Shown: in pieces, positions 3,609 through 14,652 of the stretch
Layout: each line of letters begins with the position of its first letter
Numbering within the stretch: the first letter of the stretch is position 1
Assembly: GCA_020720185.1 (NCBI GenBank)
Contig: DYPB01000052.1
Span: 1-14,652 of the forward strand
DNA length: 14,652 nt
Reading direction: 5' to 3'
Source: Flavobacterium psychrophilum
Lineage (GTDB): Bacteria; Bacteroidota; Bacteroidia; Flavobacteriales; Flavobacteriaceae
Made by a program: the position numbers and the translations under genes
The notes under the pieces: generated by a model
The model's input: the letters and a program-made list of their open reading frames with translations, nothing else
What the model was told of the DNA's origin: nothing
The model's database searches: none

Positions 3609-4931
3609 TTAGCCTCCAAACAAATTTCCTTTTTCGATTTTTTCAATTTTTGCTTCTTCAAACTTTAAATTGTCAAATTCAATATTTGGCTTGCCTTTTG
3701 AGTTGAGTTCTCTTACAATTATTGTTCTCTTAAATTTATATTTATTATCCACAACTGGGCGATAACTGCTTTGTAATAATTTGTAGCCGCTATTTAAGAT
3801 ACCGTTTTTTAGTGGACTAACTGAGATTGCAAATGGTTTGTAATAATCACTGGGAACAAAACTATCTACTACAAGTATTCCTTTTTCATCATAAAACTTT
3901 TTAGATATTTCGTTTAATGGTTTTATTTTATTGGTTGTGTGGTTTTGATGTATGTTTGTATAAACATAAGTTTTTGCTCTCTTTCTTTTGAAAGTTGGCG
4001 TTAAAAACTCATTAAATTCAAACGGAATTACTGATATTTTTTTGTTGTTCCATAGCTCTTTTGTCCAAGTATATTGAACCGCAGCTCCATTTCCAAAACA
4101 AATAATATCTTTTTTTGTTGATAGCATGGCATTATAAAAATGTTCAAATTTTGAAAACGGTGGATTTGTAATGATAACATCTGCCTCGTTTTTTGCAATA
4201 TACATGCATTCATTGTCATTATACGAACCATGAAAATTTGAATTATTACCAATAGGAGGTATTCTTAAAACCTTTTTTCCATCGTATTTTACAATAAAAC
4301 CATCGTATTTATTGTATTGATTATTAAATAGAGTACCTGAATATTCTAATTTAGAACCGTCAAAATGTGTGGATATAATTTGTTTTAACTGAAGTTTTCC
4401 AAAATTATTGTAGAAATAAATCCAGAATGCCGATTGTCCTGCATCATCACAGTTCATATAAACTACTTTGTTTTTCCAATAATCCGTCCCAAAATGATTT
4501 ACTATTGTATCTACATCGTCATAAAAAGTGTAGCATTCATCACTTTCAATGGTAATCATATCCTCCTCATCATTATATCTTCGTTTGGTTCTAGTTTTAT
4601 TTAGTCGTTCTAAATCCGTCAAACCACCTTTTTCATTCACTTGTGGCAAATCATCTATCGAAATCAAAGGAAATATTTTTTGCCAAATTGCAGACCGTAA
4701 ATCTTTGCTATCGTAACTACATTCTCTGCCCTTGCCAGCACTATTCCATTCGGGCAGGTTATATATGATTTTTAAAATTTCATCAGCATTGTTTTGAACT
4801 TTTATTGGCAAAATCCATTCGATTTTTTTAGCTTTTTGCCCTTTCCAAGCATATCCGCCACGACCTCTGTGTAATTCAAGTTGTCCTTCAGCACTTTCTA
4901 AAATAACATAGTCAATTTTCACTTTCTCCAT
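3609..4931 (-). CDS. EcoRI-type DNA adenine methyltransferase, orphan
   Basis: Predicted DNA N6-adenine methyltransferase of 440 residues using SAM. The catalytic motif IV is NPPFSKF (256-262) in DVIITNPPFS, the N-P-P-F form of adenine methylases. VVYMNCDDAGQSAFWIYF (157-174), FNEFLTPTFKR (306-316) and KTYVYTNI (320-327) resemble the CDDP...NFFKYF and LFTNL segments of the EcoRI modification methylase family. The C-terminal part (about 345-405) matches in outline the specificity region of that family; the sequence recognised cannot be read. No restriction endonuclease gene lies beside it: the neighbours are the hydrolase (15 bp upstream) and engB (50 bp downstream, with a REP-like repeat). 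It is therefore an orphan methylase, probably horizontally acquired into a housekeeping unit. The start MEKVKIDYVI is an ATG. Confidence 0.85.
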   Translation of the reverse strand: MEKVKIDYVILESAEGQLELHRGRGGYAWKGQKAKKIEWILPIKVQNNADEILKIIYNLPEWNSAGKGRECSYDSKDLRSAIWQKIFPLISIDDLPQVNEKGGLTDLERLNKTRTKRRYNDEEDMITIESDECYTFYDDVDTIVNHFGTDYWKNKVVYMNCDDAGQSAFWIYFYNNFGKLQLKQIISTHFDGSKLEYSGTLFNNQYNKYDGFIVKYDGKKVLRIPPIGNNSNFHGSYNDNECMYIAKNEADVIITNPPFSKFEHFYNAMLSTKKDIICFGNGAAVQYTWTKELWNNKKISVIPFEFNEFLTPTFKRKRAKTYVYTNIHQNHTTNKIKPLNEISKKFYDEKGILVVDSFVPSDYYKPFAISVSPLKNGILNSGYKLLQSSYRPVVDNKYKFKRTIIVRELNSKGKPNIEFDNLKFEEAKIEKIEKGNLFGG

Positions 4932-6378: not shown

Positions 6379-6390
6379 GGGTTTTAAAAA

Positions 6391-6424
6391 TCTAAAATCT
6401 AAAATCTAAAATCTAAAAATCTAA
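6391..6424 (+). repeat. 7-bp tandem array before rsmH
   Basis: About 4.7 units of TCTAAAA, one with an added A, run directly into the rsmH start codon at 6425. The array occupies the place of the ribosome binding site and is unstructured and A-rich, which could suit Bacteroidota initiation. A change of copy number would alter spacing, not frame. Confidence 0.8.
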
Positions 6425-7324
6425 ATGGAATATCATAATCCTGTACTTTTAAAACAATCGGTAGATGGATTGAATATCAATCCTGACGGGGTGTATGTGG
6501 ATGTTACTTTTGGTGGTGGCGGACATTCAAAAGAGATTTTGAGTCGGTTGAGTAGTAAAGGAAAGTTGTTTGCTTTTGATCAAGATGAAGATGCTTTGAA
6601 GAATGCAATTGATGACGAAAGATTTGTTTTGATTAACGAAAATTTTAGATACATAAAACGGTATTTACGGTTTTATGGACATGCAACAGTTGATGGAATT
6701 TTAGCTGATTTGGGGGTTTCATCGCATCAATTTGATGTTCCCGAACGGGGTTTTTCGACAAGATTTGATGCTGCATTAGATATGAGAATGAGTCAGAAAA
6801 ATGAGATAAATGCTTATAAGATTGTGAATGAATATGACGATGCTAATTTGCGAAGAATTTTTTATGATTATGCCGAAATGAGCAACGCACCAGCCATTGC
6901 AAGGGTAATTATTGAGGCCAGAGCAGTAGAGTTGATTAAAAATACAGAGCAGTTAAAATTGGTTTTAAGTCGGTTTTTACCTAATCATAAGGCTCATAAA
7001 ATATTGGCACAAATTTATCAAGGAATTAGAATTGAGGTTAATCAGGAGATGGATGTTTTGAAGGAGTTTTTAGAACAATCATTGGAAATTTTAAAACCAA
7101 ATGGCAGATTATCAGTTATTTCTTATCATTCATTGGAAGATAGATTGGTTAAAAGATTTATGAAAAATGGATTGTTTGAGGGTGAGCCTGAAAAGGATTT
7201 TTTCGGAAACTTCTCGGTTCCATTTAAAAGTGTTGGCAAACTGATAATTCCCGATAATGAGGAGATTAAAAGCAATAATAGAGCGAGGAGTGCAAAATTA
7301 AGGGTAAGTGAGAAAGCACCTTAA
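6425..7324 (+). CDS. rsmH: 16S rRNA m4C1402 methyltransferase RsmH (MraW)
   Basis: SAM-dependent N4-methylation of C1402 in the decoding centre of 16S rRNA. The 299 residues are close to the usual length of about 310. The SAM-binding motif is VDVTFGGGGHSKEIL (25-39) with the acidic strand-end FAFDQDE (49-55). Other family signatures are ADLGVSSHQFDVPERGFS (94-111), ALDMRMSQ (117-124) and the C-terminal SYHSLEDRLVKRFMK. The ATG start follows directly on a 7-bp tandem array. The stop codon (7322-7324) overlaps the edge of a G-rich palindromic element. It is the second gene of the dcw operon and probably under MraZ control. Confidence 0.97.
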   Translation: MEYHNPVLLKQSVDGLNINPDGVYVDVTFGGGGHSKEILSRLSSKGKLFAFDQDEDALKNAIDDERFVLINENFRYIKRYLRFYGHATVDGILADLGVSSHQFDVPERGFSTRFDAALDMRMSQKNEINAYKIVNEYDDANLRRIFYDYAEMSNAPAIARVIIEARAVELIKNTEQLKLVLSRFLPNHKAHKILAQIYQGIRIEVNQEMDVLKEFLEQSLEILKPNGRLSVISYHSLEDRLVKRFMKNGLFEGEPEKDFFGNFSVPFKSVGKLIIPDNEEIKSNNRARSAKLRVSEKAP

Positions 7325-7347
7325 CCCCCGAAGAGGAAACTTCGAGA
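7321..7347 (-). repeat. G-rich palindromic element (copy 2 of 4)
   Basis: The minus strand reads GAAGTTTCCTCTTCGGGGG then TTAA, a shortened version of the copy at 13029-13062 (GAAGTTCCCCCTTCGGGGG). CGAAG (7330-7334 region) and CTTCG can pair around a short loop. It starts at the rsmH stop and is followed by the perfect palindrome AGAGATCTCT (7345-7354). Confidence 0.6.
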
Positions 7348-9873: not shown

Positions 9874-11334
9874 ATGACAGTTAGTTTAGAAAATATATTA
9901 AAAAATGTTGCTATCGAAAAAATTTCGGGTTCGGCAGCTATTACCATCAATAAAATTGAATTTGATAGCAGAAAAATTGTTGCAAACGATATTTTTATTG
10001 CTATAAAAGGAACTATTTCAGACGGGCATCAGTTTATTGAAAAAGCAATTTCATTAGGAGCAACAGTTATAGTTTGTGAGGTTTTTCCAACAATTTTATT
10101 AGGAAATATTTGTTATATAAAAGTTGCTGACCCTAATAAAGCATTGGCACAAATGGCCGCAAATTTTTATAATAATCCGTCCGAAAGATTAAAATTAGTA
10201 GGAGTTACAGGTACAAATGGCAAAACAACAGTGGCGAGTTTGTTGTATCAATTGTTTAAAAAGGCAGGGTTTAAAGTTGGTTTGTTATCAACAGTAAAAA
10301 TTATGGTCGATGAAACAGAATATAAAGCAACTCATACCACGCCCGACTCGATTATGATTAATCATTATTTAAACGAGATCGTTCATGCGGGAGTTAATTA
10401 TTGTTTTATGGAAGTTAGTTCACACGGCATTCATCAGAAACGAACGGATGGTTTGACATTTGCAGGTGGAATTTTCACCAATTTGTCGCACGATCATCTG
10501 GATTACCACCCAACATTTGCAGAATATAGAGATGTAAAAAAACAGTTTTTTGATAATTTGCCCAAAACAGCTTTTGCTATAACAAATATCGACGATAAAA
10601 ACGGAGCGGTAATGTTGCAAAATACGGTTGCAAGAAAAAGAACTTATGCACTAAAATCGTATGCTGATTATAAAGTTCAAATATTAGAAAGTGGACTAAA
10701 TGGTTTGTTATTAAAAATTGACAATAACGAAGTTTGGGTGCGGTTAATAGGAGTTTTTAATGCCTATAATTTATTAGCAATTTATGCCACAGCAGTCGAA
10801 TTAGGATTAGAAAAATTAGTCGTTTTGCAATATTTATCAACATTAGAAAGTGTATCAGGACGGTTTCAATACATCGTTTCGGATGATAAAATCACAGCAA
10901 TTGTCGATTATGCTCATACACCTGATGCGTTAGAGAATGTGTTAAAAACAATAGACGATATTAGAACTAAAAACGAGCAGTTGATAACCCTAGTAGGCTG
11001 TGGTGGCGATAGAGATAAAACCAAACGACCTGTAATGGCAAATATTGCGACCAATTTTAGCAATAAAGTAATTCTAACATCGGATAATCCACGAACTGAA
11101 AATGCAGAAGCAATTTTGGACGATATGGAGGCAGGGGTAGAACCACAAAATTATAAAAAAATGCTCCGAATAACCGATAGAAAGCAAGCCATAAAAACCG
11201 CAGTTTCGTTAGCAAAAACCGGAGATATTATTTTGATAGCTGGCAAAGGGCACGAGAATTATCAAGAAATTAATGGAGTTAAACATCATTTTGATGATAT
11301 GGAAACTGTTAGTCAATTTTTAATTATGAATTAA
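9874..11334 (+). CDS. murE: UDP-MurNAc-tripeptide synthetase MurE (meso-DAP type)
   Basis: Cytoplasmic ATP-dependent ligase adding the third amino acid to UDP-MurNAc-L-Ala-D-Glu. The 486 residues show the N-terminal UDP-binding domain (about 1-95), the ATP loop GTNGKTT (113-119) in the central domain with THTTPDS and FTNLSHDHLDYH, and the C-terminal domain with GCGGDRDKTKRP. DNPRTE (Asp404-Arg407) is the DNPR motif linked to meso-diaminopimelate, so this cell wall should be the DAP type. KGHENYQEI near the end is also typical. The ATG at 9874 is the only start fitting the family. The last bases lie inside the left arm of a 23-bp inverted repeat that flanks the next gene. Confidence 0.97.
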   Translation: MTVSLENILKNVAIEKISGSAAITINKIEFDSRKIVANDIFIAIKGTISDGHQFIEKAISLGATVIVCEVFPTILLGNICYIKVADPNKALAQMAANFYNNPSERLKLVGVTGTNGKTTVASLLYQLFKKAGFKVGLLSTVKIMVDETEYKATHTTPDSIMINHYLNEIVHAGVNYCFMEVSSHGIHQKRTDGLTFAGGIFTNLSHDHLDYHPTFAEYRDVKKQFFDNLPKTAFAITNIDDKNGAVMLQNTVARKRTYALKSYADYKVQILESGLNGLLLKIDNNEVWVRLIGVFNAYNLLAIYATAVELGLEKLVVLQYLSTLESVSGRFQYIVSDDKITAIVDYAHTPDALENVLKTIDDIRTKNEQLITLVGCGGDRDKTKRPVMANIATNFSNKVILTSDNPRTENAEAILDDMEAGVEPQNYKKMLRITDRKQAIKTAVSLAKTGDIILIAGKGHENYQEINGVKHHFDDMETVSQFLIMN

Positions 11335-11350
11335 AAATTACGAATTACGA
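11328..11350 (+). repeat. Left arm of perfect 23-bp inverted repeat
   Basis: The arm begins GAATTAAAAATTACG and ends AATTACGA; its exact reverse complement is at 11759-11781. It covers the last two codons of murE plus 16 bases. The sequence uses the ATTCGTA heptamer (here on the minus strand) also seen before mraY and murD. Confidence 0.9.
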
Positions 11351-11367
11351 AAAAAATCCACTTCAAT

Positions 11368-11679
11368 ATGAAAGATAACATTATACAACAGAAATCATTT
11401 TTGTTTGCTATCAGAATTGTGAATCTATACAAACATTTAGTTTCTGATAAGAAAGAATATGTTTTAAGTAAACAAATTTTAAGAAGCGGCACTTCGATTG
11501 GTTCTAATATCGAAGAATCAATCGGTGGTCAATCCAATAAAGATTTTCTTTCAAAAATTAGTATTTCTTATAAAGAAGCAAGAGAAACAATTTATTGGTT
11601 AAAACTTCTTAAAGAAACAGAATACATTTCAAAAGAAGAATTTGAAAGTATATATAATGATGCAAATGAAATATGTTAA
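11368..11679 (+). CDS. Four-helix-bundle protein (23S IVS type), C-terminally shortened
   Basis: A 103-residue protein of the four-helix-bundle family first known from open frames in 23S rRNA intervening sequences and common as single genes in Bacteroidota. Key features: KSFLFAIRIVNLYKHL, LSKQILRSGTSIGSNIEESIGGQS and KISISYKEARETIYWLKLL, the family's most conserved blocks. The frame ends at TAA 11677-11679 (after NEIC). Read through that codon, it continues ILGSIQISMKNK and stops at 11725-11727, giving about 119 residues and restoring the family's usual ILGSI-type ending. A single AAA-to-TAA change thus probably removed the end of the last helix. No rRNA is nearby. The role is unknown; it is not part of the cell wall pathway that surrounds it. 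Confidence 0.88.
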   Translation: MKDNIIQQKSFLFAIRIVNLYKHLVSDKKEYVLSKQILRSGTSIGSNIEESIGGQSNKDFLSKISISYKEARETIYWLKLLKETEYISKEEFESIYNDANEIC

Positions 11680-11758
11680 ATATTAGGAAGCATACAAATT
11701 TCAATGAAAAATAAAATTAATCAATAATTAATTCATATTTTTTTTAAAGTTTAATCAA

Positions 11759-11781
11759 TCGTAATTCGTAATTTTTAATTC
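11759..11781 (-). repeat. Right arm of perfect 23-bp inverted repeat
   Basis: The plus strand begins TCGTAATTCGTAA and ends TTTTTAATTC, the exact reverse complement of 11328-11350. It is followed by one more ATTCGTA-type unit (11778-11784 overlaps its end) and T-rich bases up to the mraY start at 11796, so the repeat also supplies the mraY leader. Confidence 0.9.
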
Positions 11782-11795
11782 GTAATTTTTTTAAT

Positions 11796-13022
11796 ATGTT
11801 ATACTATCTATTCGAATATCTAAATAAGGAATTGAACATTCCAGGAACAGGCGTTTTCCAATACATTTCGTTTCGATCTGCGTTGGCAATAATTATGTCG
11901 TTGTCAATCTCGACTATTTTTGGCAAACGAATTATTAATTATCTGCGAAACAAACAAGTAGGCGAAACCGTTAGAGAACTCGGACTCGACGGGCAAAATC
12001 AAAAAGCAGGCACACCCACAATGGGCGGATTAATCATTATTATAGCAACTTTAATCCCTGTTTTTTTGCTAACCAAGTTAAACAATGTGTATATTATCCT
12101 ATTGATAATAACCACTTTATGGATGGGTACTATTGGTTTTATTGACGATTATATAAAAGTTTTCAAAAAAGACAAAGAAGGATTAAAGGGAATATTTAAA
12201 GTCGTAGGACAAGTTGGTTTAGGTTTAATCGTAGGTTCGATTTTGTATTTTAACTCAAATGTTACGATTAGAACAGACATCAAAAACAAAAATTATTCGT
12301 TCAACAAAACTACCGAAACAAAAACAATACCCGTTTACGAAAAATCAACCGCAACCACCATTCCCTTTATGAAAAACAACGAGTTTGATTATGCCGAAAT
12401 CCTTTCATTTATGGGAGATGGTTACAAAAACTGGGCGTGGTTAATTTTTATTTCAGTCGTTATTTTTATCATTACCGCAGTCTCAAACGGAGCCAATCTA
12501 ACCGATGGAATTGACGGTTTGGCGGCAGGAACATCGGCAATATCAGTCATAGCACTAGGTGTTTTCACATTTCTTTCGGGCAATATTATTTTTTCTAACT
12601 ACCTCAATATTATGTATATCCCAAATGCGGGCGAAATGACCGTTTTCATTGCAGCATTTGTAGGAGCACTAATAGGATTTTTGTGGTACAATTCCTATCC
12701 AGCATCAGTCTTTATGGGTGATACGGGCAGTTTAACCATCGGCGGAATCATTGCCGTTTTGGCAATTGCCGTCCGAAAAGAGTTGTTAATAATATTGTTT
12801 TGCGGGATTTTCTTTGCCGAAACTTTATCAGTAGTCATTCAAGTTGCCTATTTCAAATACACCAAAAAACGCTTCGGAGAGGGCAAACGAATTTTCCTGA
12901 TGTCGCCCCTGCACCATCATTATCAAAAAAAAGGATACCACGAAAGTAAAATAGTAACAAGATTTTTAATAGTAGCAATTATGTTGGCAATCTTGAGTTT
13001 AGTAACATTGAAGTTGAGGTAA
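11796..13022 (+). CDS. mraY: Phospho-MurNAc-pentapeptide transferase MraY
   Basis: Integral membrane enzyme moving phospho-MurNAc-pentapeptide from UDP to undecaprenyl phosphate, forming lipid I. The 408 residues contain many hydrophobic helices and the catalytic sites: the Asp pair Asp117-Asp118 in [27 protein letters not shown] (Asn234, Asp237, Asp240), [12 protein letters not shown] (Asp309) and the histidine loop [10 protein letters not shown] (His373-375). It is about 45 residues longer than the E. coli enzyme because of a polar insert (about 150-215, including [14 protein letters not shown] sequence and [17 protein letters not shown]), usual in Bacteroidota and predicted to face the periplasm. 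The ATG follows a T-rich repeat. murD follows after an unusually long 311-bp gap. Confidence 0.97.
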
Positions 13023-13028
13023 AAGCAA

Positions 13029-13062
13029 AGCCCCCTAACCCCCGAAGGGGGAACTTCGCAGG
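13029..13062 (-). repeat. G-rich palindromic element (copy 4 of 4)
   Basis: The minus strand reads GAAGTTCCCCCTTCGGGGG followed by TTAGGGGG. CCCCC (13039-13043) and GGGGG (13047-13051) form a tight hairpin with loop GAA. It lies 6 bp after the mraY stop, so transcripts would carry this GC hairpin, but no U tract follows. Confidence 0.75.
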
Positions 13063-13080: not shown

Positions 13081-13179
13081 TGATTGAGTGAGTATCAGGA
13101 TATGATGAGTGAGTAGCAGAAAGTAGTAAGTGAGTAGTAAAAAATGATTGGAGTGTAGCAGGATATGATGAGTGAGTAG
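13081..13179 (+). repeat. Degenerate direct repeat, two 35-36-bp units
   Basis: Unit 1 (13081-13116) and unit 2 (13145-13179) both begin TGATTG and share an identical 21-bp stretch (13096-13116 and 13159-13179, beginning CAGGATATGATGAG). They differ by a small indel near their starts. The DNA between is rich in the same GTGAGTAG words. Only two units and no uniform spacers, so it is not a CRISPR array. Confidence 0.75.
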
Positions 13180-13298
13180 AGCAAAAGATGTGGCATTTTC
13201 GGATTATGTAAATCATCGATAAAAAACAACCGCAAAGTGGGGAGTTTTCGGGAAAAATGTATCAATAAGAATAATGTTTTACAATTTGACAAATCCAA

Positions 13299-13329
13299 AT
13301 TCGTAATTCGTAATTCGTAATTCATAATT
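13299..13329 (+). repeat. 7-bp tandem array before murD
   Basis: Three exact ATTCGTA units, one ATTCATA and a partial ATT, ending 4 bp before the murD ATG. The same unit makes up part of the inverted repeat around the four-helix-bundle gene. Confidence 0.85.
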
Positions 13330-13333
13330 AAAT

Positions 13334-14652
13334 ATGCGTTTAGTAATATTAGGTGGTGGCGAAAGCGGTGTTGGAACGGCAATACTTGCTAAACAAAATG
13401 CTTACGAGGTATTTGTGTCCGATTTTGGAAAAATAAAAGATAAGTATAAACAGGTTTTGGTGGATAATGAAATTGAATTTGAGGATGAAAAACACACCGA
13501 GAATTTGATTCTAAATGCCGATTTGGTAATGAAAAGCCCTGGAATTCCAGATAAGTCGCCAATAGTCAAAAAATTGATAGAAAAAGGAGTGAAAATTGTA
13601 TCCGAAATAGAATTTGCCATACAGTTCACAAACGCAAAAACAATAGGAATTACGGGCAGTAACGGCAAAACCACTACTACAATGCTTACTTATCATTTGC
13701 TGAAAGAGGCAGGATTAAATGTTGGGTTAGGGGGCAATATCGGAAAAAGTTTTGCTTGGCAAGTGGCTACCGAAAATTTTGATTATTTCGTATTAGAATT
13801 AAGCAGTTTTCAACTCGATGGTTGTTATAATTATCGACCAGATATTGCGATAATAACCAATTTAAGTCCCGATCATTTAGACCGATATGATTATAAATAT
13901 AAAAATTATATAGCCTCAAAGTTTAGAATAACACAAAATCAAACGGCAACCGATTTCTTGATTTATGACGATGATGATTCCGAGATTGCCAATTGGTTCA
14001 AAAACAACAAAACGAAAGCAAGATTAATTCCGTTTTCATTAACAAAACAAAATGAATTTGGAGCATTTATAAAAAATAATACCATGAAAGTTTTAATCAA
14101 CGAAGAAGAATTTAATATCGAAACTGATACAATAATTTTAGAAGGAAAACACAACCATAAAAATGCTATGGCAGCATCGTCTGTTGCAATGCTTTTAGGT
14201 GTTAGAAAAAAAACGATTGAGAATAGTTTAAAAACCTTTCAAGGAGTAGAGCATCGGTTAGAGAAGGTTCTGAAAATAAATGGTGTGCAATATATTAATG
14301 ATAGCAAGGCTACTAATGTAAATTCGGTTTATTACGCACTCGAAAGTATGACGGCACCTACCGTTTGGATTATAGGTGGTATAGATAAAGGAAATGATTA
14401 CGATCAATTGACCGAATTGGTTTTTGAAAAAGTAAAATCAATAATCTGTTTAGGGGTCGATAACGAAAAAATATTAAAGACTTTCGGGAATATGGTTGAG
14501 GTAATGGTTGAGGTTGAAAATATGGAAGATGCCGTAAAAACCGCTCAACATCTTACCGAAAAGGGAGACTGTGTTTTACTATCTCCAGCTTGTGCTAGTT
14601 TTGACAAATTTAATAATTACGAAGATCGAGGAAACCAGTTTAAACGGTTTGT
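13334..14652 (+). CDS. murD: UDP-MurNAc-L-Ala-D-Glu ligase MurD (3' end cut by window)
   Basis: Cytoplasmic ATP-dependent ligase adding D-glutamate to UDP-MurNAc-L-alanine. 439 codons are visible and the frame is still open at the window edge; the last residues, YEDRGNQFKRFV, lie close to the usual C-terminus, so only a few codons are missing. The N-terminal dinucleotide-like loop is VILGGGESGVGTA (4-16), the ATP loop GSNGKTT (108-114) in the central domain, with LELSSFQLD and ITNLSPDHLDRYDY following, then EGKHNHKNAMAA and NDSKATN, and SPACASFDKFNNYEDRG near the end. The ATG at 13334 fits the conserved start and follows an ATTCGTA array. A 12-bp tandem duplication (14492-14515) encodes MVEVMVEV without breaking the frame. 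Confidence 0.96.
   Translation, partial: MRLVILGGGESGVGTAILAKQNAYEVFVSDFGKIKDKYKQVLVDNEIEFEDEKHTENLILNADLVMKSPGIPDKSPIVKKLIEKGVKIVSEIEFAIQFTNAKTIGITGSNGKTTTTMLTYHLLKEAGLNVGLGGNIGKSFAWQVATENFDYFVLELSSFQLDGCYNYRPDIAIITNLSPDHLDRYDYKYKNYIASKFRITQNQTATDFLIYDDDDSEIANWFKNNKTKARLIPFSLTKQNEFGAFIKNNTMKVLINEEEFNIETDTIILEGKHNHKNAMAASSVAMLLGVRKKTIENSLKTFQGVEHRLEKVLKINGVQYINDSKATNVNSVYYALESMTAPTVWIIGGIDKGNDYDQLTELVFEKVKSIICLGVDNEKILKTFGNMVEVMVEVENMEDAVKTAQHLTEKGDCVLLSPACASFDKFNNYEDRGNQFKRF

Follow-up and report, generated by a model that had tools for sequence, protein, structure and literature searches.

Intervening sequences (IVS) of 23S rRNA are the closest described relatives of the element analysed here. 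The IVS of Coxiella measures 428 nt, is closed by a 28-bp terminal stem that is cleaved by RNase III, and carries two to three tandem GACAGAT heptamers, in strain-variable number, before the S23p open reading frame (PMC4990558). Structures of the IVP/S23 protein family have been solved while its function is still open according to the same paper, in the cited parts of which no wider link of the heptamer is drawn (PMC4990558). Intergenic arrays of another heptamer, TAACTGA, have been described from Beggiatoaceae, Cyanobacteria and Bacteroidetes, in the sections cited here without a known binding protein and with the speculation that the mobile element might be a protein binding to TAACTGA (MacGregor, 2015; PMC4679880); the terms 'four helix', 'intervening' and 'S23' have 0 occurrences in the main text of that paper. 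Work on F. columnare and Arthrospira just lists four helix bundle genes in the parts considered (PMC5524665, PMC8700078), and no literature joining IVP genes outside rRNA with heptamer arms was found in a search mostly at title and abstract level, with most subscription journals outside its scope.

The window, which is the whole stretch of 14,652 nt analysed here (Flavobacterium psychrophilum, GenBank GCA_020720185.1, contig DYPB01000052.1), carries an IVP gene within the dcw operon, together with several heptad arrays:

9874..11334, + strand: murE, the upstream neighbour, with its stop codon (11332-11334) within the left arm
11322..11350, + strand: left arm, a heptad array reading AATTATG AATTAAA AATTACG AATTACG A on the + strand
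11368..11679, + strand: IVP gene (103 aa, four-helix-bundle protein, PF05635/TIGR02436)
11680..11724, + strand: former 3' part of the IVP frame past an early stop, still readable as ILGSIQISMKNKINQ*
11759..11787, - strand: right arm, the inverted heptad array, with the mraY start 8 nt further on
11796..13022, + strand: mraY, the gene 3' of the element (ATG at 11796)
13295..13335, - strand: gene-less heptad array in right-arm orientation, reaching the murD ATG (13334)
6382..6424, - strand: gene-less (AATCTAA)n array, read on the + strand, of five units with right-arm polarity, abutting the rsmH/mraW ATG (6425)

The whole element spans 11322-11787 (466 nt), with a single IVP gene inside inverted arrays. 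The perfect 23-bp arms (11328-11350 and 11759-11781) reported in the initial annotation were confirmed as the core of a 29-nt pair, 28/29 complementary (97%) with one mismatch at 11327 and 408 nt between the arms, whose inverted alignment score of 26.5 lies above all 2000 dinucleotide shuffles (mean 10.5, maximum 22) and above the maximum of 14 among 530 other segment pairs of the window at the same spacing. Likewise, in agreement with the initial annotation, the left arm contains the murE stop and the mraY leader holds the right arm. The latter ends 8 nt before the ATG. The arms are inverted arrays of the 7-nt unit AATTACG with the variants AATTAAA and AATTATG. Searching the window for the pattern AATTACGAATTACG with up to two mismatches gave 9 overlapping matches against 0.36 expected, and these fall in both arms and in a third array directly before murD. 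The gene itself had been assigned to the 23S-intervening-sequence type, in agreement with the matches of its product to PF05635 (E=2.1e-30) and TIGR02436 (E=1.9e-31), both above the curated cut-off. Comparison with the PDB led to 2rld (E=1.2e-36) and, weakly, 2gsc (E=0.034), with 5 chains in each entry. The gene stops about 15 codons short of its end in the relatives L003, L008, L012, L260 and L261. PF05635 is the sole Pfam match of the protein, and no catalytic domain, in particular no transposase or HUH nuclease, was detected. REP/RAYT systems and insertion sequences share with IVP elements a gene between inverted recognition sequences and dispersed gene-less copies; unlike them, the IVP has no transposase or nuclease domain. 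A related four-helix-bundle pentamer, which works with nucleic acid, is the Avd accessory protein of diversity-generating retroelements, from which the window differs as no reverse transcriptase was recognised among its ORFs when the list was judged by eye. A known RNA (no Rfam family reaching gathering score in the window), a phage origin of the element (no DNA match among 50,697 phage records) and a defence gene (four IVPs without a match in PADLOC) were tried and rejected.

With 23S IVS the element shares an IVP-family ORF, a similar unit size (428 nt in Coxiella, 466 nt here) and complementary ends of about 28 nt, and by our own comparison GACAGAT of Coxiella has the AG polarity described below. 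Unlike 23S IVS it lies between the protein genes murE and mraY, outside any rRNA gene, and unlike in the cited description of the Coxiella IVS, heptads form both of its arms; it works like an IVS but is not located in rRNA. The TAACTGA arrays, as described in the cited sections, resemble the right arm and the arrays at 6382-6424 and 13295-13335 in that tandem 7-nt units stand directly before start codons; the other strand of TAACTGA, TCAGTTA, fits an AGT heptad and right-arm polarity (again our comparison), whereas the units in the window are AATTACG and AATCTAA. We consider 11322-11787 to be probably a compact IVS-like mobile element, the IVP of which would recognise its own heptad ends.

PF05635 was present, with 3-10 matches each, in 20/20 genomes that were picked by hand through the loci and include known IVP carriers, and in 45/61 Bacteroidota genomes; the window protein had matches at E<=1e-25 in 90/199 Flavobacterium genomes. 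Across Bacteroidota, IVP genes are often flanked by inverted heptad arrays. In a first set, consisting of the 101/104 IVPs with complete 250-nt flanks, inverted flanks with a score of at least 14 were seen at 60/101 loci, compared with 11/101 in direct orientation and 2.3% of mismatched pairs. A mostly new set (87/92 IVPs) gave inverted 200-nt flanks for 51/87 IVPs and 0/13 control genes. When spacers only were compared, inverted repeats were found at 44/70 IVPs vs 15/232 control genes; of these 15, two are duplicates of IVP loci, and six to eight reflect a different hairpin that surrounds a single dcw-linked gene. Arms with a score of at least 14 were detected for 145/235 IVPs, the other 90/235 lying below the threshold, and the arm statistics describe only the 145 arm-bearing loci. 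Plasmid loci, sampled as 12/26 records from Cyanobacteriota, Bacteroidota, Spirochaetota, Chloroflexota and Bacillota, had inverted flanks at this score in 10/12 cases and in four phyla; L295 carries arms other than heptad arrays, L296 scored 10 and yet looks periodic on both sides, and L300 (Bacillota) scored 8 and has a stop inside the IVP frame. A search for empty sites in Nostoc plasmids gave matches that break near the element and differ in the other flank, and no clean empty site. Some plasmid IVPs are found in clusters annotated as defence-like (L296, L298, L299, L300 and L294), in the orders csx2-IVP-cas1, DUF1156-IVP-Swt1/HEPN (two), hsdS-IVP-hsdR and helicase-IVP-hypothetical-DNA methyltransferase. 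On another plasmid, from Nostoc, a right array of 29 GCGACTT and 7 ACGACTT units lies between the IVP gene and xisH (L301:1931-2192).

Period-7 arrays were detected in a flank of 37/87 IVPs, compared with 0, 2, 10, 1 and 0 for periods 5, 6, 8, 9 and 10; period 7 is dominant, and period 8 occurs in some subfamilies. A shared-phase model over 140 arms led to the motif A-R-T-T within the heptad. The arrays are polar, with AG over CT in 60/73 loci and the reverse in 4. The same polarity was observed in the mostly new set (left arrays 39 vs 2 with 4 ties, right arrays 4 vs 28 with 4 ties), which is only partly independent in this respect because the motif was first noticed partly in L171-L199 (13/29), all of which belong to the 87 IVPs. 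Opposite polarity was found in 8/122 arm-bearing loci inside operons and also in the plasmid loci L295 and L297, and where arm-bearing IVPs are antisense to both neighbours, the polarity follows the IVP gene in 7/7 cases, of which three are mutual orthologues. As the two arms differ at only 9-17% of sites by position while successive heptads within one arm differ at 27-50%, the inverted repeat is real and more than a common motif. The window arms, differing at 1 of 29 positions, agree more closely than arms generally do, so that a recent origin, as suggested in the initial annotation, or homogenisation may apply to them. The protein is under purifying selection (median dN/dS 0.079 for the 79/96 pairs with finite dS).

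Arm similarity between different contexts increased with IVP identity, from about 0.22 below 50% to 0.39 at 50-60%, 0.54 at 60-70% and 0.59 at 70-80%, and 0/2000 permutations reached the observed mean, the loci being related and kinship left uncorrected. For different-context pairs it was higher within than without in 9/10 subfamilies with at least three members, the exception being the three loci of cluster 9 (0.16 within vs 0.24 background). Among loci of known genome, to which this comparison was limited, unlike IVPs of one genome showed an arm similarity of 0.218, equal to the background of 0.22, whereas like IVPs in different genomes and contexts reached 0.352, or 0.358 over 455 pairs when window-subfamily pairs were left out. 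That the heptamer tracks the IVP subfamily and not the genome is well supported. The window subfamily (25 loci, mean identity 65%) uses AATTACG or AATTAAA except for a Euhalothece member with CAGTGAC, and units elsewhere, named by eye, are GATTTTA, GTTTCAA, CAGTnnn, GTTGATG, purine-rich AGA units, the octamer AGGTTCTA and others. Between IVPs about 80% alike, synonymous sites are near saturation and dN/dS is 0.08; an unconstrained spacer should therefore have lost the likeness of the arms. Arms scattered widely without a linked gene had been named beforehand as an argument against a unit of gene and arms, and such scattering was found in part: the window holds gene-less AATTACG arrays, and exact (AATTACG)3 occurs in 22/199 Flavobacterium genomes, mostly away from a window-type IVP gene. 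A close window-type IVP (best E<=1e-34, a cut chosen post hoc, with counts by hand) was present in 10/22 genomes with (AATTACG)3 vs 23/177 without (p=7e-4), and at E<=1e-25 no association was seen (11/22 vs 79/177, p=0.66). A scan of 21 genomes for CAGTATT arrays gave 1 match.

IVP genes are co-directional with both neighbours in 95/101 and 61/82 cases (control genes 86/232 and 7/12), which gives no support to the invertible segment considered in the initial annotation. The right arm ends -10 to +20 nt from the next co-directional start in 85/127 loci. Gene-less intergenic arrays of period 7 were also found in 81 dcw loci (n=36): 16/36 have right-arm polarity with a start at most 300 nt away, 11 of those ending -6 to +8 nt from it, 10/36 have left-arm polarity with the start 17-147 nt off, and the remaining 10 show neither arrangement. 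The same 81 loci contain 30 arrays of period 10, nearly matching the 36 of period 7. In different-context pairs, sampled as 25 of the 34 most similar ones, DNA homology extended at least 15 nt beyond the gene, a reach that may not span an arm, to the left in 14 pairs, to the right in 12 and in both directions in 8. Outside the gene, homology always ended within 150 nt on the left side and within 200 nt on the right, a far limit that is partly built in because the pairs were picked for unlike flank proteins. Arm homology across contexts is partial. That the IVP gene, inverted polar heptad arms, a subfamily-linked heptamer and insertion in operons together make up a compact unit is well supported.

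The MraY of the window mostly shares 80-83% identity with its counterparts in the best Flavobacterium loci. When 80 related dcw loci were searched by tblastn with the window protein as query, none (0/80) had an IVP gene at murE-mraY. An IVP was located directly 3' of mraY in 6/80 and near murD-ftsW in 6/80, with L012 showing both; ftsW was assigned from its sequence. Where no IVP follows mraY, the start of murD, located by script in 59/74 loci (15/74 without call), lies 0-5 nt from mraY in 50, 6-50 nt in 7 and more than 50 nt in 2, compared with 448-572 nt in the 5/6 IVP-bearing loci with a located start. From this spacing, short without the IVP and long with it, gene and arms come and go together. 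The mini-element moved in trans, proposed beforehand, is well supported in so far as arms and gene accompany each other in many contexts and most relatives lack both at the same junctions, while its movement in trans is what we infer. Two unlike subfamilies occur after mraY, L003, L008 and L012 being 74-81% identical to the window IVP and L059, L062 and L077 26-31%. The closest relatives fetched (75-85% identity; the nine loci L260-L267 and L272, of which L262 duplicates L003) all lie directly downstream of mraY, and relatives of at most 68% identity lie elsewhere. In the window, the array before murD resembles the right arm of the elements that occupy this junction in L261 (94% over 36 nt) and in L012 (85% over 47 nt), and is likely a remnant of an earlier position of the element (13295-13335). 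Moreover, the window MurE ends in ...VSQFLIMN*, its final codons and stop being supplied by the left-arm region, whereas most of 50 relatives end in ...VKEILEQLNK* or a similar sequence. Because relatives occupy mraY-murD, a right-arm-like remnant is found there and the left arm has overwritten the end of murE, the element seems to have hopped inside the operon, from mraY-murD to murE-mraY; alternatively there may have been two elements, one of which has since lost its gene. No target-site duplication was evident by eye at mraY-murD when L003, L008 and L012 were compared with empty relatives of other species. In L002, L003, L008, L019 and L039, AG-polar arrays lie 44-63 nt before the next start and look like left halves of gene-less hairpins, the partner half being detected in L019. 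The murE-mraY junction of L001, L002, L008 and others holds gene-less AAATTCC/TTGGAATTT hairpins, with a polarity seemingly opposite to that of the IVP arms. Further repeats of the window are a 25-nt GTAGCAGGATATGATGAGTGAGTAG-like unit that occurs three times between mraY and murD (13092-13179) and a 32-nt sequence, AAAGCNCCNTAACCCCCGAAGNGGNAACTTCG, shared with 88% identity by the 3' end of rsmH (7313-7344) and that of mraY (13027-13058).

The same arms might act in RNA. In the operon transcript the arms would then form a long stem enclosing the IVP frame, in the manner of 23S IVS, RNase III would cut this stem and so part the murE and mraY messages or bare the mraY leader, and selection would keep the pairing. 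A predicted fold indeed pairs the window arms in a 29-bp stem (z -5.6), and to this extent the structured RNA suggested in the initial annotation is possible; the sense orientation in operons, the agreement of arm with arm beyond that of neighbouring heptads, and the RNase III-cleaved terminal stem in the cited account of Coxiella (PMC4990558) would fit as well. However, the 394 transition mismatches in 128 loci are divided into 203 of G.U type and 191 of A.C type, and this equality leaves no trace of selection on a sense RNA stem; in this the IVP arms, whose mismatches give no support for sense-strand RNA pairing, differ from 23S IVS as RNA element. In addition, mismatches shun the three strongest motif positions (9-11% vs 14-17% at the other four), as would not be expected from pairing alone, polarity and subfamily-linked heptamers are not predicted by pairing, and some arrays (L290, L301) exceed the paired part by far. 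DNA-level recognition or homogenised DNA ends fit the mismatch data better than RNA pairing, and we regard an RNA element as unlikely.

Instead of moving, the IVP could be a settled regulator that binds leader arrays, both in its own operon and in others, and thereby governs how the next gene is translated or transcribed, the arms being operator arrays and mobility incidental and ancient. The position of right arms and of right-polarity gene-less arrays at start codons and the purifying selection on the protein would be expected from such a role, for which TAACTGA arrays offer a parallel, being mostly just before starts in one genome and suggested, in the cited part, to be bound by a regulator (MacGregor, 2015; PMC4679880). 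Its presence is patchy among related species, however, as seen from the counts at murE-mraY, after mraY and at murD-ftsW; this reading is credible but rather improbable. On the other hand, the heptamer arrays might be ordinary site-bound repeats in these genomes, with the IVP gene merely landing in or between them, and gene-less arrays and hairpins are indeed seen at operon junctions occupied by IVP genes in relatives; but the heptamer follows the protein across genomes and sites, which disfavours this explanation, and the 0-5 nt gap between mraY and murD in 50/59 loci without an IVP leaves no room for an array, so that we hold it to be highly improbable.

For the mobile element that we prefer, the IVP protein, of which a solved homologue has been described as homopentameric, would recognise several heptads in each array of its own arms, and array recognition would mark or pair both ends of the element. 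The movement would depend on functions for nuclease action, recombination or copying that are supplied in trans, because no catalytic domain was found in the IVP. Elements are found mostly in short intra-operon spacers and in sense direction, for which reason the host operon would transcribe them, and the right array comes to rest against the start codon of the next gene. Such a sense bias is uncommon among DNA transposons and might be a sign of RNA. Where the gene is lost, hairpins without a gene or solitary arrays would remain. In the lineage of the window, the element would have left mraY-murD, where the right-arm remnant stays, and would now be found between murE and mraY. As a more tentative generalisation, which we consider slightly less likely than not, IVPs may form a large class, so far unrecognised, of proteins that bind arrays sequence-specifically, each subfamily reading its own 7-nt (sometimes 8-nt) unit, bearing this unit as inverted arms and spreading gene-less arrays before start codons, which would explain 23S IVS, many of the operon genes annotated as 'four helix bundle protein' and the orphan heptamer arrays known from Bacteroidota, Cyanobacteria and Beggiatoaceae. 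If so, the heptamer common to related IVPs would be a candidate ligand for each subfamily, the old question of 23S intervening sequences and their protein would become a binding assay, and heptamer arrays described without source or reader would gain a source and a candidate reader.

Two further observations concern the records and the surroundings of the cluster. Records L007 and L012, titled Klebsiella pneumoniae and Bdellovibrio, contain Flavobacterium-like dcw genes and are likely mislabelled metagenome bins. Near the dcw cluster of the window, a 440-aa ORF (3609-4931, - strand) carries an NPPF motif and is probably an adenine DNA methyltransferase.
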